Below are positions 12,425 to 42,618 of a stretch of 57,373 nucleotides of DNA, piece after piece. The notes under the pieces were generated by a model that worked only from the letters and a program-made list of their open reading frames with translations, was not told the origin of the DNA and made no database searches. Each line of letters starts with the position of its first letter. Position 1 is the first letter of the stretch. A program made the position numbers and the translations under genes. Source of the DNA: an uncultured Methanosarcinales archaeon (GTDB lineage: Archaea > Halobacteriota > Methanosarcinia > Methanotrichales > Methanotrichaceae); assembly GCA_903871465.1 (NCBI GenBank), contig CAIQHB010000053.1:1-57373 (forward strand), written 5' to 3'.

Positions 12425-12570
12425 ATAGATGCCCCCGCGAAAGAGCGCCGGTGCACCTTGCCTGATGAAATTATAGGAGGGGGGCAAAAGCCACTGAAAC
12501 GGAGGGGGAAAGAAATGAGGATTCGACTCTTGCCAAGTCATAGATACGTCAATCGACGTATTTAAGGGTT
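12425..12570 (-). ncRNA. Candidate small RNA A with double anti-Shine-Dalgarno motif
   Basis: On the minus strand a BRE/TATA (GAAAC-CCTTAAATA, about 12559-12573) is followed by a perfect 18-base palindrome of ATACGTC and GACGTAT around GATT (12544-12561). Transcription would start near 12535. The predicted RNA has a small stem-loop GACT/AGTC, then a pyrimidine-rich tract. TTTCCCCCTCC and CTTTTGCCCCCCTCC each contain CCCTCC, complementary to Shine-Dalgarno GGAGGG. Then comes CATCA and a GGCGCTCTTTCGCG element. The same order of elements, with about the same spacing, is found on the plus strand at 31811-31932. The two copies support an RNA gene rather than a chance motif. The 3' end is unknown. 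Confidence 0.45.
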
Positions 12571-12573
12571 TCG
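12544..12573 (-). promoter_or_regulatory. TATA box with 18-bp palindromic operator-like site (sRNA A)
   Basis: CTTAAATA occupies 12559-12566 on the minus strand, with a GAAAC BRE-like element just upstream. ATACGTCGATTGACGTAT (12544-12561) is a perfect inverted repeat of 7-bp arms. It overlaps the box and extends toward the expected start site, where archaeal repressors bind. A related but less symmetrical sequence follows the TATA box of the second locus (31821-31838). Confidence 0.5.
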
Positions 12574-12606: not shown

Positions 12607-13461
12607 TCAGGATTTCACCATATCGAAGACCCACCGGCTGACACCAGGCGACACATTGCCGCAGCGACGACATTGCATTACCACGAGGCCCATATCCTCA
12701 TACCCCCTGCGGAGGGCCTCGATCTGGTCGCGCTTTTTGAAGGTGTAGAAATGAAGCACGCCCCCGGGCTTCACCATTTGCGATGCAGTCTCTGCAATTT
12801 GGTCCAATCCGTAGGGTGTGGGCGAGACCACCCTGTCGAAGTCCATCTTCAGCAATTTGGCCATATGAAGCGCGTCCCCATGTATCACCTCGATCCTCTC
12901 CTCAACGCGATTTTGCCGGGCGTTCCTGGCCAGCCATAGACAAGCTTCGCGATTCTTCTCCAGCGCCACGACGCGAGCGCCCCGGGCCGCAATTGGCACC
13001 ACGAAGGGACCTGAGCCCGCGAATGGCACCAGCACATCTTCACCCGCCCTGACCTGGGCGGCCACCCTCATTCTTTCGCTGCCCAGACGGCTGTTGAAGA
13101 AGACCCGCGCCACATCCAGATGGTAGATAAAGCCGAACTCCTTGTGGGTGGTGATGGTATTGCCTGTGCCCGCCAGCACCTCCATGCGGGCCACCCTTCG
13201 CTCGCCCTCCAGCCGGGAGGTCTTGTTCAGCACAGTGTGAATGTGATTGCACTGGTTCAATAGGGCCGTGGCGATCTCCGTCTTGTAGTCCTCCAGCTCC
13301 GGAGCAAGGGATAGCACGGCAATCTCCCCAACGACATGGTAGCCATCCGGGAGCTTGACCAGGCTCTCTTCGGGCACCGTTCCTCGCAGCATCTCCTTCA
13401 GGCGCATCTTCATTCCTTGTTCTTCATTGCCGGGAACCGTACTCAAGTCAAAGAGTCTCAA
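12607..13461 (-). CDS. Class I SAM-dependent methyltransferase, Trm5/Tyw2-like
   Basis: A 284-residue protein. The N-terminal region (1-100) resembles the Trm5/Tyw2 D1-D2 domains (LPDGYHVVGEIAVLSL; TSRLEGERRVARMEVLAGTG). A Rossmann methyltransferase follows, with motif I VLVPFAGSGPFVVPIAARGA and an acidic loop ALEKN. These enzymes act on G37 of tRNA-Phe (m1G37 or wyosine side-chain transfer). At the post-strand-4 site where an N-x-P motif is expected, it reads SPTPYG, so catalytic specificity is unclear. TYW1 in this window makes the wyosine base, which fits a role in the same pathway. The C-terminus holds a CRRCG motif. Confidence 0.75.
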   Translation of the reverse strand: MRLFDLSTVPGNEEQGMKMRLKEMLRGTVPEESLVKLPDGYHVVGEIAVLSLAPELEDYKTEIATALLNQCNHIHTVLNKTSRLEGERRVARMEVLAGTGNTITTHKEFGFIYHLDVARVFFNSRLGSERMRVAAQVRAGEDVLVPFAGSGPFVVPIAARGARVVALEKNREACLWLARNARQNRVEERIEVIHGDALHMAKLLKMDFDRVVSPTPYGLDQIAETASQMVKPGGVLHFYTFKKRDQIEALRRGYEDMGLVVMQCRRCGNVSPGVSRWVFDMVKS

Positions 13462-30959: not shown

Positions 30960-31660
30960 GGTAGGTCGGCGGCGATCCCTAAATAGTTTATTAGAGAAAT
31001 CAATTTTATTGAAACACCACCGCTCAATATCTGATTCACCGTCGAGGGATTTTATCTTTTTTCCAATTTGTCCCTGCCCCGTGCACTTCAGGTGCCTGCC
31101 CTCGGCCCACGCGACCTAAACGTCTTCTCATGCAGCCAGCCCCCTTTTACGCCATCTGCTCCAGGTCCAAGACATCGGTCTGAATAACGACTTCTGCCAG
31201 AGCACAGAATTCAACCGCAAACTACTAATATCTATAACGATTATATGAGTAGTTTGCCGCTTCATGCAAAGGGTGGCGGGTGTGTCGTGGGCAAAACCCG
31301 ATTCCGATAATGCTCTGTTTGGCAGGGATGATTCGATCGCTGACCCCCGGGGGGCAGCTTGCGGTCGCTAATCGGCGAGATCGCTTTCCTTGTTCCAGGA
31401 GATGCATGCCGTCGTGGCATTGCATTCGGGCTTGGGAGCCTGTGAAACTGAAACTTTGGCTGCAAAAAAAAAGTTGCGCACGGTAACAGGTGCAGTAATC
31501 TGCCAAAGGGATTTCGCGCTAATACACGACCGGGGCATGAAGCGGCACAAGGCCAAAAGGCGAGAGGCGAGCATGAGGCCCCCATGATAGGGGTTCCCGT
31601 GAAACGGACGCTGTGTCAAATTCCAGTGCGATTGGCGCCTCGAGCCCGGGCTTAATAGTC
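30960..31660. other. Long non-coding stretch, mostly unexplained
   Basis: Between the GIY-YIG gene and the sulfatases (30781-32190) I find no gene. Three overlapping minus-strand open frames (31225-31787) are open in all three phases, carry no recognisable domain and are treated as chance. The GC content is higher than the surrounding intergenic DNA. Local hairpins include CCCC/GGGG near 31580-31592 and CTCGA/TCGAG (31639-31643, 31659-31663). The structured element at 31666-31743 and small RNA B follow. Confidence 0.4.
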
Positions 31661-31665
31661 GAGCT

Positions 31666-31743
31666 TCAGGCAGGGTCAGGCCGTCACTTCGGTGATTGTG
31701 CTCCTCCTGAAAGGGCGCTGTGAATCGGCGCTGACCTGCCTGA
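31666..31743 (+). ncRNA. Candidate structured RNA: 13-bp stem with UUCG hairpin inside
   Basis: TCAGGCAGG(G)TCAG (31666-31679) pairs with CTGACCTGCCTGA (31731-31743): 13 pairs, one bulged G. Inside is GTCAC-TTCG-GTGAT (31683-31696), a C(UUCG)G tetraloop on the plus strand. The tetraloop argues for a plus-strand RNA rather than only a DNA palindrome. It does not fit the consensus of RNase P or SRP RNA as I know them. No promoter is evident right upstream. Confidence 0.35.
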
Positions 31744-31810
31744 GAATCGATCCTCCTGTTTTCTGTTTTTTCCTTTGATGATGGCAATTGATTCCGATTT
31801 CTTCCTAATC

Positions 31811-31838
31811 GAAAGCCTTAAATACAGCAATCGACGTA
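31811..31838 (+). promoter_or_regulatory. BRE/TATA box and operator-like site of small RNA B
   Basis: CGAAAGCCTTAAATAC (31810-31825) matches GAAACCCTTAAATAC at the other small-RNA locus. It continues AGCAATCGACGTAC, which parallels GTCGATTGACGTAT there. The conserved parts are CCTTAAATAC, then AT and GACGTA at the same distance, so both promoters may bind the same factor. Confidence 0.5.
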
Positions 31839-31841
31839 CAT

Positions 31842-31935
31842 CCCATCGGCGAAGGTCGATGGGCTATTTTCTCCCTCCTACCTAAGACTTTTGCCTCCCT
31901 CCTTCTTACCCATCAAAACGCTCTTATGAGCGCCC
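31842..31935 (+). ncRNA. Candidate small RNA B with double anti-Shine-Dalgarno motif
   Basis: Downstream of the TATA box, the expected transcript begins near CCCATCG-GCGAAGGT-CGATGGG (31842-31863), a perfect 7-bp hairpin. It continues CTATTTTCTCCCTCC and then CTTTTGCCTCCCTCC, two CCCTCC units in an unpaired pyrimidine tract, followed by CATCA and a CGCTC-TTAT-GAGCG hairpin (31919-31932). The same order, including the CTTTTGCCYCCCTCC block, occurs at 12425-12570 on the other strand. CCCTCC is complementary to GGAGGG, which precedes several genes here (both sulfatase genes and the GIY-YIG gene). The 3' end is unknown. Confidence 0.48.
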
Positions 31936-32190: not shown

Positions 32191-34656
32191 TTACAGGCGT
32201 CTGAGGATCCTTGCCGATGTCTCCAGGCCCTCATCATAGGAGTATCGAATTGGTACAGTCATGGCGATATATGTCTGGCCTTCTTGCTTGCCATTGATAA
32301 ACAGCGTCCCGATGCCCTTGTACCTCCCGGTCTTGTTGAAGGCGAAAGCCAACGTTGATGGCCCTGTGGACACTTTATCCTTCGAGGTGATGGAATAATG
32401 TTTCTGGCCCACGAAGTTGTAATCGTAGATGAGATGGTTGTTCTGCACGTACAACGAGAGTCCAGCGAACCGTCCTCCTATAGAGAATAGAACCCCGTTG
32501 GCCCCTGTTTCCGGAATATCGACATCTGCGGTGATGCGGTAGGAGCTGTTGTGGGTATCAGGGATATCGGGCTCCATAGCCTTACTCGTTCCCGGGTAGT
32601 AGGTGAATATTCCCGTCTTGGGAATGGAGGGATAGCGCGACCCAATCCGATCATCCAGGGGCAGAACATTGTACTTGCCAGCTTCCGACCACCAGCGCTC
32701 CTCCATCTCCAACACCATCTCAGGATTCATCGATGCCAGGTCGTGCGATTCCGAGACGTCTGCCGAGAGGTTGTAGAGCTCCCAGACGTCCTGATCGAAG
32801 TTGCCTCCTGAGTTCACATGGTGGAAAGCGACAGCCTTCCAGTCATTGTACCAGAGTCCACGGGTTCCCATCATCTCGAAATACTGGACTCGCTTATGAG
32901 TCGGCTCGTTCGGATGAGTGAAGGTATAGGCCAAGCTGGTCCCTTCTATGGGCATTTGGGGGTAGCCGTTATAGACCCCAGGAGCCTGGATGCCCAAGAC
33001 CTCCAGGACCGTCGGAACCACATCAATGGCGTGGCAGAACTGGTTTCTGATGCTGCCATGATCCTGAAATCCATCCGGCCAGTATAAGATCATCGGATCG
33101 TGTACACCGCCTTCGTTGGTGGTCCACTTGTAGAGCCGGTCAGGCGTATTATCGGCCATTGCCCAGCCCAATGGATAAGTCGGATAAGACAATGGCCCGC
33201 CCAACTCATCCAATTTCTTCAACATGGTGCTTATATTGGATGCACAGCGCGAATTGTTCCCTAAGAATCCAGCGCTGTCTCCTCCCTCGGACATTGAATT
33301 GCCCCAGAGAACCATATTGGTGTAGCCGTTGGCATCACCCTCGGGACTGGCTCCGTTATCCGAAAGCAACACGATCATCGTGTTATTCAGCTGTCCGGTC
33401 TCGTTTAGGTAATTGATGAATTTGCCGATTTGCTCGTCGGTGTAGTCAACATATGCGGCGTGGACCTCTGCCAGTCGCGCGTATACCTTCTTCTCATCGG
33501 AAGTGAGGTTATCCCAAGCCTTGACATACTGGTCCCTCGGTGGTAGATCGGTATTATTGGGCACTGCTCCAAGAGCTTTTTCTTTAGCCAGGGTCGTATT
33601 TCGCATAGCATCCCAGCCCTGGTCGAACTTGCCCCTGTATTTGTCGATGTATTCCCGGGGCGCATGGTGCGGCCAGTGGCCGGCACCGAAGGCCAGGTAG
33701 AGGAAGAAGGGCTTATTCGGGCTGACAGCCTTTCCATCGTTGATGAACTCGATGGATCGGTTGACCAAATCCTTGGAGAGATGGTATCCCCCTTCAGGCG
33801 TTGCCGGAGGATCTATGCGCTGGGTGTCATAGACCAGATCAGGATACCACTGACTGGTATGAGACTCCAGGAACCCATAGAACCTCTCAAAGCCCCGGCC
33901 CGTGGGCCATTCATCGTAAGGCCCTGCCGAATTGATGTCAGCCGAGGGTGCAAGATGCCACTTGCCCACGGCATAGGTATTATAGCCCACATCCTTGAGC
34001 ATCTCCGGCATCGTGGCGGCATTCTTTGACAGGTGGGCATTGTATCCATCATAGCCGGTGGCAAACTCCATGAGTGTGCCCACGCCCACTGAATGGTGGT
34101 TGCGGCCGGTGAGCAGGCAAGCGCGAGTGGGTGAGCAGATCGCGGTGGTATGGAAGTTGCTGTAGCGCAATCCTCCTGCTGCAAGCTTATCGATGTTAGG
34201 TGTATCTACGGGCCCGCCGAAGCATCCCAGGCCGCCGTATCCGATATCATCGAGCACCAGGAATACGATATTTGGCGCGCCTTTCGGTGGCTGGGCTACA
34301 TTGGGCCAGCATTGGGTGGAGTCCTTGTAAGTCAAACCTATAACAGGCTGGCACTCTTCGGTTTTATTAGCCCGGATGACCATGACGCTTTCGGCCTTAT
34401 CAGGCTGGATGACATCGCCGTAGGCTACTGACGCCAGGCTGGAGTTCGCAGCGAGTGGGTTTCTCCTGTTGGTGAGCAGGTCGATCCCTGTGCCAGAATC
34501 ATTAGCCAAATGATCGCTATTGGGGCTACTATTCATTTGAAGATAATCAGATTTGCCTGCTCCCTGATCTGAAGCAGGGCAGATAGAGGCTCCCAGGAAT
34601 ATTATTAAAAGTACCAAGGCAGCCGTCATAAACCTTGAAGATATATGAACGAACAT
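32191..34656 (-). CDS. Secreted sulfatase (formylglycine type), 821 residues
   Basis: A large sulfatase. The signal peptide is TAALVLLIIFLGASICPASD. The alkaline-phosphatase-like domain begins near 128 with NIVFLVLDDIGYGG (metal-binding Asp pair). The formylglycine site is CSPTRACLLTGR with Cys174 (C-x-P-x-R); GKWHLAPS and LLSDNGASPEGD follow. A C-terminal extension (about 690-821) looks like a beta-sandwich (GVLFSIGGRFAGLSLYVQNN). It resembles arylsulfatase A-type enzymes cleaving sulfate esters outside the cell. The Cys-type site requires the adjacent anaerobic maturase. GGAGGG abuts ATG 34656 directly, so ATG 34629 or another start may be used. Confidence 0.9.
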   Translation of the reverse strand: MFVHISSRFMTAALVLLIIFLGASICPASDQGAGKSDYLQMNSSPNSDHLANDSGTGIDLLTNRRNPLAANSSLASVAYGDVIQPDKAESVMVIRANKTEECQPVIGLTYKDSTQCWPNVAQPPKGAPNIVFLVLDDIGYGGLGCFGGPVDTPNIDKLAAGGLRYSNFHTTAICSPTRACLLTGRNHHSVGVGTLMEFATGYDGYNAHLSKNAATMPEMLKDVGYNTYAVGKWHLAPSADINSAGPYDEWPTGRGFERFYGFLESHTSQWYPDLVYDTQRIDPPATPEGGYHLSKDLVNRSIEFINDGKAVSPNKPFFLYLAFGAGHWPHHAPREYIDKYRGKFDQGWDAMRNTTLAKEKALGAVPNNTDLPPRDQYVKAWDNLTSDEKKVYARLAEVHAAYVDYTDEQIGKFINYLNETGQLNNTMIVLLSDNGASPEGDANGYTNMVLWGNSMSEGGDSAGFLGNNSRCASNISTMLKKLDELGGPLSYPTYPLGWAMADNTPDRLYKWTTNEGGVHDPMILYWPDGFQDHGSIRNQFCHAIDVVPTVLEVLGIQAPGVYNGYPQMPIEGTSLAYTFTHPNEPTHKRVQYFEMMGTRGLWYNDWKAVAFHHVNSGGNFDQDVWELYNLSADVSESHDLASMNPEMVLEMEERWWSEAGKYNVLPLDDRIGSRYPSIPKTGIFTYYPGTSKAMEPDIPDTHNSSYRITADVDIPETGANGVLFSIGGRFAGLSLYVQNNHLIYDYNFVGQKHYSITSKDKVSTGPSTLAFAFNKTGRYKGIGTLFINGKQEGQTYIAMTVPIRYSYDEGLETSARILRRL

Positions 34657-42309: not shown

Positions 42310-42393
42310 AGCACGCTCCATTCTATTGCCCCAATTGATCAAATCTGCGAACCATTGCAAAATTGTTCATATAAGTTACCAAGGAGTCTGGTT

Positions 42394-42618
42394 ATGTTCC
42401 CAACAAAGAAGGTACAGAGTCTGGTAGGCAGCAAGATTCAGGTAGAGATGAAGGGCTCACCCCGTTATGTCCTGGAAGGTATCCTCAACAGCGTAGATGA
42501 ATACTTGAACCTTCACCTACTCGAGACAGTGGAGCTGATCGGCGGCGAGAAGACTCGCTCTTTGGGATCAGTTATCCTGCGCGGCAACAACATAATTCTC
42601 ATAAGTCCAATTGAATAG
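42394..42618 (+). CDS. Sm-like archaeal protein (SmAP/Lsm)
   Basis: A 74-residue Sm fold. Sm1 motif region LVGSKIQVEMKGSPRYVLEG with VDEYLNLHL; Sm2 motif VILRGNNIILIS. It forms a heptameric ring that binds U-rich RNA. ATG 42394 is used, with GGAG seven bases upstream; the frame could open at 42355. Archaeal Lsm may act in sRNA and tRNA metabolism, relevant to the candidate small RNAs. The start of the winged-helix gene is 11 bases downstream. Confidence 0.9.
   Translation: MFPTKKVQSLVGSKIQVEMKGSPRYVLEGILNSVDEYLNLHLLETVELIGGEKTRSLGSVILRGNNIILISPIE

Follow-up and report, generated by a model that had tools for sequence, protein, structure and literature searches.

The window analyzed here, the whole 57,373-nucleotide contig CAIQHB010000053.1 (assembly GCA_903871465.1) of an uncultured Methanosarcinales archaeon in the family Methanotrichaceae, contains two short loci, one on each strand, with a promoter-like region followed by a C-rich stem-loop. 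A TRM5/TYW2 gene (12607-13461, minus strand) precedes locus A, and a sulfatase gene (32191-34656, minus strand) converges on locus B. The Lsm gene that a preliminary description of this DNA had pointed out is present at 42409-42609 on the plus strand (PF01423, E 4e-17), in the interval 42355-42618; a second Lsm gene of the genome lies on contig C37, and a gene for the translation initiation factor SUI1/aIF1 (PF01253; 43172-43480, minus strand) is found ~0.6 kb from the window's Lsm gene. The features of the two loci are as follows.

12559-12573, minus strand: locus A BRE/TATA CGAAACCCTTAAATA, read from the sequence
12544-12561, minus strand: locus A operator-like dyad ATACGTCGATTGACGTAT, 8/9 pairs matching, based on the consensus TCGnCnAnTGnCGTA
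12468-12535, minus strand: locus A small RNA (sRNA), predicted start ~12535, 3′ end approximate, match to covariance model R1 at 1.6e-13
12525-12534, minus strand: locus A stem 5′ arm GGCAAGAGUC, from folding and covariation
12501-12506, minus strand: locus A loop anti-Shine-Dalgarno (anti-SD) motif CCCUCC, read from the sequence
12483-12492, minus strand: locus A stem 3′ arm GGCUUUUGCC, from folding and covariation
12476-12481, minus strand: locus A tail anti-SD motif CCCUCC, read from the sequence
31810-31824, plus strand: locus B BRE/TATA CGAAAGCCTTAAATA, read from the sequence, spacing as in the family
31823-31838, plus strand: locus B operator-like element TACAGCAATCGACGTA, read from the sequence and the family consensus
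31847-31910, plus strand: locus B sRNA, match to model R1 at 4.3e-14
31848-31857 and 31886-31895, plus strand: locus B stem arms GGCGAAGGUC and GACUUUUGCC, from folding
31873-31878 and 31897-31902, plus strand: locus B CCCUCC, two units, read from the sequence
31214-31790, plus strand: larger candidate structured RNA, ~570 nt, adjoining the locus B promoter on its upstream side, from repetition, compensatory changes and out-of-frame gaps

Read directly, the sequence has a BRE/TATA, a dyad element and two CCCTCC units in the order that had been claimed for 12425-12570 (minus strand) and 31811-31935 (plus strand). A pattern search with CCCTCCN{6,24}GRCTTTTGCYNCCCTCC returns exactly two matches in the window, which are loci A and B, and none in 100 dinucleotide shuffles. 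The dyad of locus A had been described as a perfect 18-bp palindrome, which it is not, because only eight of the nine pairs in ATACGTCGATTGACGTAT match and one is a G/T mismatch. When each locus is folded alone, a long stem encloses the first CCCUCC and the second CCCUCC comes directly after the stem. The small stem-loop of the preliminary description was rejected as the conserved fold, since a short 5′ hairpin of this kind does not exceed shuffled sequence in stem length (mean 3.92 versus 4.06 in shuffles).

A DNA search with locus A as query gave one more copy, and the near-twin pattern CCCTCCN{5,30}CTTTTGCCNNCCTCC hit nine places in the genome and nothing when reversed as a control. A covariance model built from these nine pattern-found copies (R1) then recovered 13 copies at E<6e-6, loci A and B among them, and a diverged 14th copy (C4:78192-78263, minus strand) was recognised through synteny. 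Thus, A and B are genuine members of one RNA family as had been proposed, though the family numbers at least 13–14 copies in this genome and not two. Rfam 15 held no match for the sRNA in the window or in related loci, even at a relaxed E-value, and our literature search found no paper on sRNAs or sRNA regulation in Methanosaeta/Methanothrix. Loci A and B are copies of a previously undescribed, predicted small-RNA gene.

The same RNA is carried by all 50 of the Methanotrichaceae genomes sampled by covariance search, which span 11 genera, at 2–16 copies each. Outside this family there is one copy per genome where a match occurs: all seven of the f4 genomes sampled from ANME-2 have it, as do part of Ca. 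Methanoperedens, Methanolobus and a few other Methanosarcinaceae genera, and named records with the sRNA include Ca. M. nitroreducens, Methanolobus vulcani, Methanomethylovorans, ANME-2 and Methanocrinis. Models R1 and R2 found no credible match in g38, a large-genome group taken here as the genus Methanosarcina. A scan of 394 genomes across the phylum gave 41 matches, all inside the class Methanosarcinia and none outside it, and since every match falls in one class the scan also serves as a specificity control. We regard it as almost certain that the sRNA family is real.

The conserved fold of the ~65-nt RNA is a single 10-bp stem. In 62 matches, 99.5% of the cells in this stem are paired and three pairs show double changes, and in 113 matches from all groups 99.1% are paired, with double changes at four pairs in 12 cells (U-A to C-G, A-U to G-C, C-G to U-A, and G-C to A-U). 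None of 500 shuffles reaches these double-change cells or the covariation score, and slid controls give only 0–1 such pairs. In all 133 copies folded, the long helix is also part of the minimum-energy structure (mean z -4.3), but the model used to find them already contains that helix, and it is for this reason that the double changes carry the weight. Three stem pairs are invariant, such that the sequence is kept as well as the pairing. The preliminary description had named three findings that would have spoken against the family, namely no more copies, no covariation, and a likeness confined to the promoter. Instead, further copies occur in all 50 Methanotrichaceae genomes, the stem keeps its pairing through compensatory changes, and the RNA part is alike along with the promoter.

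The promoter itself has a strict geometry. In 115 of 121 Methanotrichaceae copies, the TATA box precedes the stem by 28–33 nt, and from this fixed distance transcription should begin at the stem, which supports a predicted discrete transcript that each copy would make from a promoter of its own. In the interval from the TATA box to the start, an operator-like element matching at least 8 of the 11 positions of TCGnCnAnTGnCGTA is found in 107 of 120 Methanotrichaceae copies (1.9 expected), beginning 22–24 nt before the stem in nearly all matching copies. It is also present in all three Methanoperedens copies from the genome search and absent from the ANME-2 and Methanosarcinaceae copies. Across copies, the parts of the dyad that are kept are a half-site TGnCGTA and a partner TCGnC, and the strict form CGNCNATTGNCGTA occurs three times in this genome, each time at an sRNA promoter. 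A dyad tied in this way to sRNA promoters implies a putative transcription factor devoted to these RNAs.

The remaining conserved sequence is C-rich. CCCTCC is found in the loop of 104 of 121 Methanotrichaceae copies (5.0 expected), where the C-rich loop often reads CCCUCCUACAUCC, and again in the tail after the stem in 87 of 121 (6.0 expected). In the 13 outgroup copies, which have no CCCTCC tail, every loop contains CCTC (2.9 expected), as ATCCCCTC, CCCCTCATATCCC or CCTCCTATATCCC. Outside CCCUCC the loops vary between copies, though they stay constant within groups of orthologues.

Such a group is formed by the copy that lies, in most Methanotrichaceae genera, between a nudix/glutamyl-tRNA-synthetase gene pair and an amino-acid-kinase gene. 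It comprises the diverged copy C4:78192-78263 (minus strand), L346, in this genome and L336-L345, L349 and L352 elsewhere. Its 22-nt loop, CTCCCTCCTTTACCCTACATCC, is nearly invariant while the flanks have diverged, and conservation is confined to the promoter, the stem and the C-rich loop. The copy is vertically inherited and offers the best way in to the search for a specific target. Tandem arrays of 2–5 complete promoter-plus-sRNA units occur in several genera (L023 on the genome's own C65; L052 on G003 C24; G004 C47; G001 C100; G005 C212; G016 C1 at ~938 kb; and G031 C24), and two sequenced arrays have a PfkB kinase gene on one side and a gene for a MoxR-like AAA ATPase on the other. Among the single copies, those of the Methanosarcinaceae are convergent with an SSF symporter gene and those of ANME-2 with a TPP-enzyme gene, and one Methanoperedens copy is upstream of adk. 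The names glutamyl-tRNA synthetase, nudix, NurA-like and MoxR-like are presumptive ones, recognised from the gene sequences with no Pfam match.

These neighbourhoods bear on whether the RNA could be a cis-acting leader or attenuator of the gene downstream. In most genera the orthologous copy is 25–170 nt upstream of the co-oriented amino-acid-kinase gene, and some tandem arrays are upstream of the MoxR-like gene, as a leader would be. However, the genes flanking sRNA copies point in both orientations, the neighbours of loci A and B are convergent, and in L336 the orthologue is retained beside different neighbours with a convergent downstream gene. On gene orientation, along with the tandem units, we reject a leader of the next gene, and we consider this reading largely refuted and very improbable.

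A further feature of locus B is that it makes up the 3′-terminal part of a repeated unit of ~700 bp (31172-31908, plus strand). By comparison of flanks, ~570–640 nt upstream of the sRNA promoter are common to locus B, C56a, C56b, C59 and, in part, C62, with 84% identity over 754 nt between locus B and C56b, and are absent at locus A and the remaining genome copies. Several congeneric species carry this upstream DNA beside sRNA copies as well; apart from locus B, the unit is represented by L014, L015, L013, L031, L037, L029 and L243. Among the sRNA flanks compared it was seen beside some copies in that one genus. It was rejected as a coding gene, as 231 of 236 gaps are out of frame and no reading frame is conserved. 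Across eight copies, 14 pairs of the predicted structure show compensatory changes in 24 cells, which none of 500 shuffles reaches and for which slid controls give 2–5 pairs; Rfam holds no match to it. The large element is probably a separate, larger non-coding RNA.

Multiple copies, several of which in this genus share ~600 nt of upstream DNA, are also what a dispersed DNA repeat would leave, such as mobile-element debris with no function as RNA. We find this scarcely credible, and less so than the leader, since the family includes single-copy syntenic orthologues within families, its conservation stops at the promoter, stem and C-rich loop with compensatory changes in the stem, most copies lack the upstream DNA, and viral contigs contain no match to either the sRNA or the large element.

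How the RNA might act is suggested by its seed. CCUCC is the core of the anti-Shine-Dalgarno sequence carried at the end of 16S rRNA, and in 456 kb of the genome the 6-mers enriched upstream of starts are variants of GGAGG. Together, the anti-SD core in the RNA and the GGAGG-type Shine-Dalgarno (SD) sites in the genome make SD masking the simplest action. In the mechanism we propose, each copy would be an independent gene driven by an archaeal promoter of its own, and one dedicated transcription factor would bind the TCGnCnAnTGnCGTA dyad of probably all copies; at this position, downstream of the TATA box and ahead of the start site, a bound protein would be expected to repress. The 10-bp stem would present the C-rich loop with CCCUCC and leave the second CCCUCC in the short tail, and these sequences, because they copy the anti-SD end of 16S rRNA, would most likely pair with GGAGG-type ribosome-binding sites. 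Pairing would lower the translation of a set of mRNAs, and the redundant copies would provide dosage. What sequence comparison shows is the family, its promoter and operator-like motif, the covarying stem, the two C-rich motifs and that the RNA does not depend on its neighbouring genes; transcription, a repressor at the dyad, pairing with SD sites and the direction of any effect on targets are predictions.

Target predictions did not single out an mRNA. Duplex energies against the translation-start regions of 396 genes (456 kb) were hardly better than for shuffled loops, with composition dominating the result, and a search for the extended loop complement in 17 genomes matched mostly the sRNA genes themselves and no shared mRNA start region. 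The trans-acting anti-SD repressor put forward in the preliminary description is plausible and is the best current reading, though it stands with no specific mRNA from the target tests. The lack of the operator-like motif in ANME-2 and Methanosarcinaceae copies also counts against this reading.

That result would also be expected of a general translation dampener, which would hit any strong GGAGG SD in response to starvation or growth rate, with dosage set by copy number. Its seed would be the generic anti-SD seen here, and GGAGG dominates among the SD sites of this genome, yet is perfect in only 49 of 396 genes. On the other side, the loop sequence beyond CCCUCC changes from copy to copy and is constant within orthologue groups, which suggests target specificity, and we think a general dampener improbable. 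Somewhat less improbable, though still unlikely, is a sponge that titrates a protein, in which the stem and C-rich motif bind an Lsm, KH or cold-shock-type protein in the manner of RsmY/Z with a C-rich code. A protein ligand would suit a stem whose own sequence is conserved, with three pairs that never vary, and one short motif present twice per RNA in many copies, as well as the lack of a specific mRNA in the target tests. In contrast, the loop motif is the anti-SD core in all lineages, and the longer loop CTCCCTCCTTTACCCTACATCC kept in the orthologue group is a better fit to base-pairing than to a short motif for a protein.

Weighing these, we take multicopy trans-acting anti-SD sRNAs that mask SD sites under one shared regulator to be the best reading, and a moderately probable one. 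A wider proposal is more tentative, and we offer it as a possibility on which we would not yet rely: a previously undescribed regulatory RNA, spread across Methanosarcinia, may have multiplied in Methanothrix and its relatives to form a multi-sRNA translational regulon with a transcription factor of its own, and in one genus it may have become physically coupled to a second, ~570-nt structured RNA that travels with some copies.

Methanothrix is among the main converters of acetate to methane on Earth, and few trans-acting sRNAs of archaea are known, as species-level cases. The family would be class-wide, its fold, seed and operator-like motif all defined, and is found in ANME-2, Methanoperedens and Methanolobus as well. 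The dyad common to its promoters points to a putative sRNA-dedicated transcription factor, and the family allows a test of whether archaea independently evolved the multicopy anti-SD strategy of the bacterial LhrC and cuckoo RNAs.

Among archaeal sRNAs, the closest in kind are those of M. mazei, as had been suggested. The anti-RBS loop 2 of sRNA154, an RNA with two stem-loops that is highly conserved in Methanosarcina, acts on glnA2, and sRNA41 masks ribosome-binding sites in the ACDS operon (PMC5867862); both are archaeal intergenic sRNAs that mask such sites. The likeness appears to be one of kind only: our covariance models gave no credible homologue in g38, taken as Methanosarcina. The comparison with the two M. 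mazei RNAs covers their published descriptions and, through models R1 and R2, the g38 genomes.

For mode of action, the nearest parallels come from bacteria. In Listeria monocytogenes, the five copies LhrC1-5 all depend on LisRK through a shared promoter element, and redundant CU-rich UCCC sites in loops and a single-stranded stretch block translation (PMC4132741). The Methanotrichaceae RNA likewise has several copies per genome (2–16), a common promoter element (the operator-like motif of 107/120 copies, through which regulation is predicted), and redundant, unpaired C-rich sites (loop, 104/121; tail, 87/121). LhrC differs in being bacterial, with five copies and two stem-loops, and homology in sequence or structure is neither claimed nor detected, Rfam having given no match. 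The cuckoo/alpha-r14 RNAs of Rhizobiales carry the anti-SD CCUCCUCCC in unpaired parts of hairpins, copied within one RNA (PMC10746234), and an anti-SD motif that lies unpaired and is repeated in one RNA is what they have in common with the family described here. There, three hairpins with variable stems each bear the motif, whereas the Methanotrichaceae RNA, which is archaeal and has TATA promoters, has a single conserved hairpin whose stem sequence is almost fixed, reads CCCUCC in place of CCUCCUCCC, and carries its second copy in a C-rich tail.
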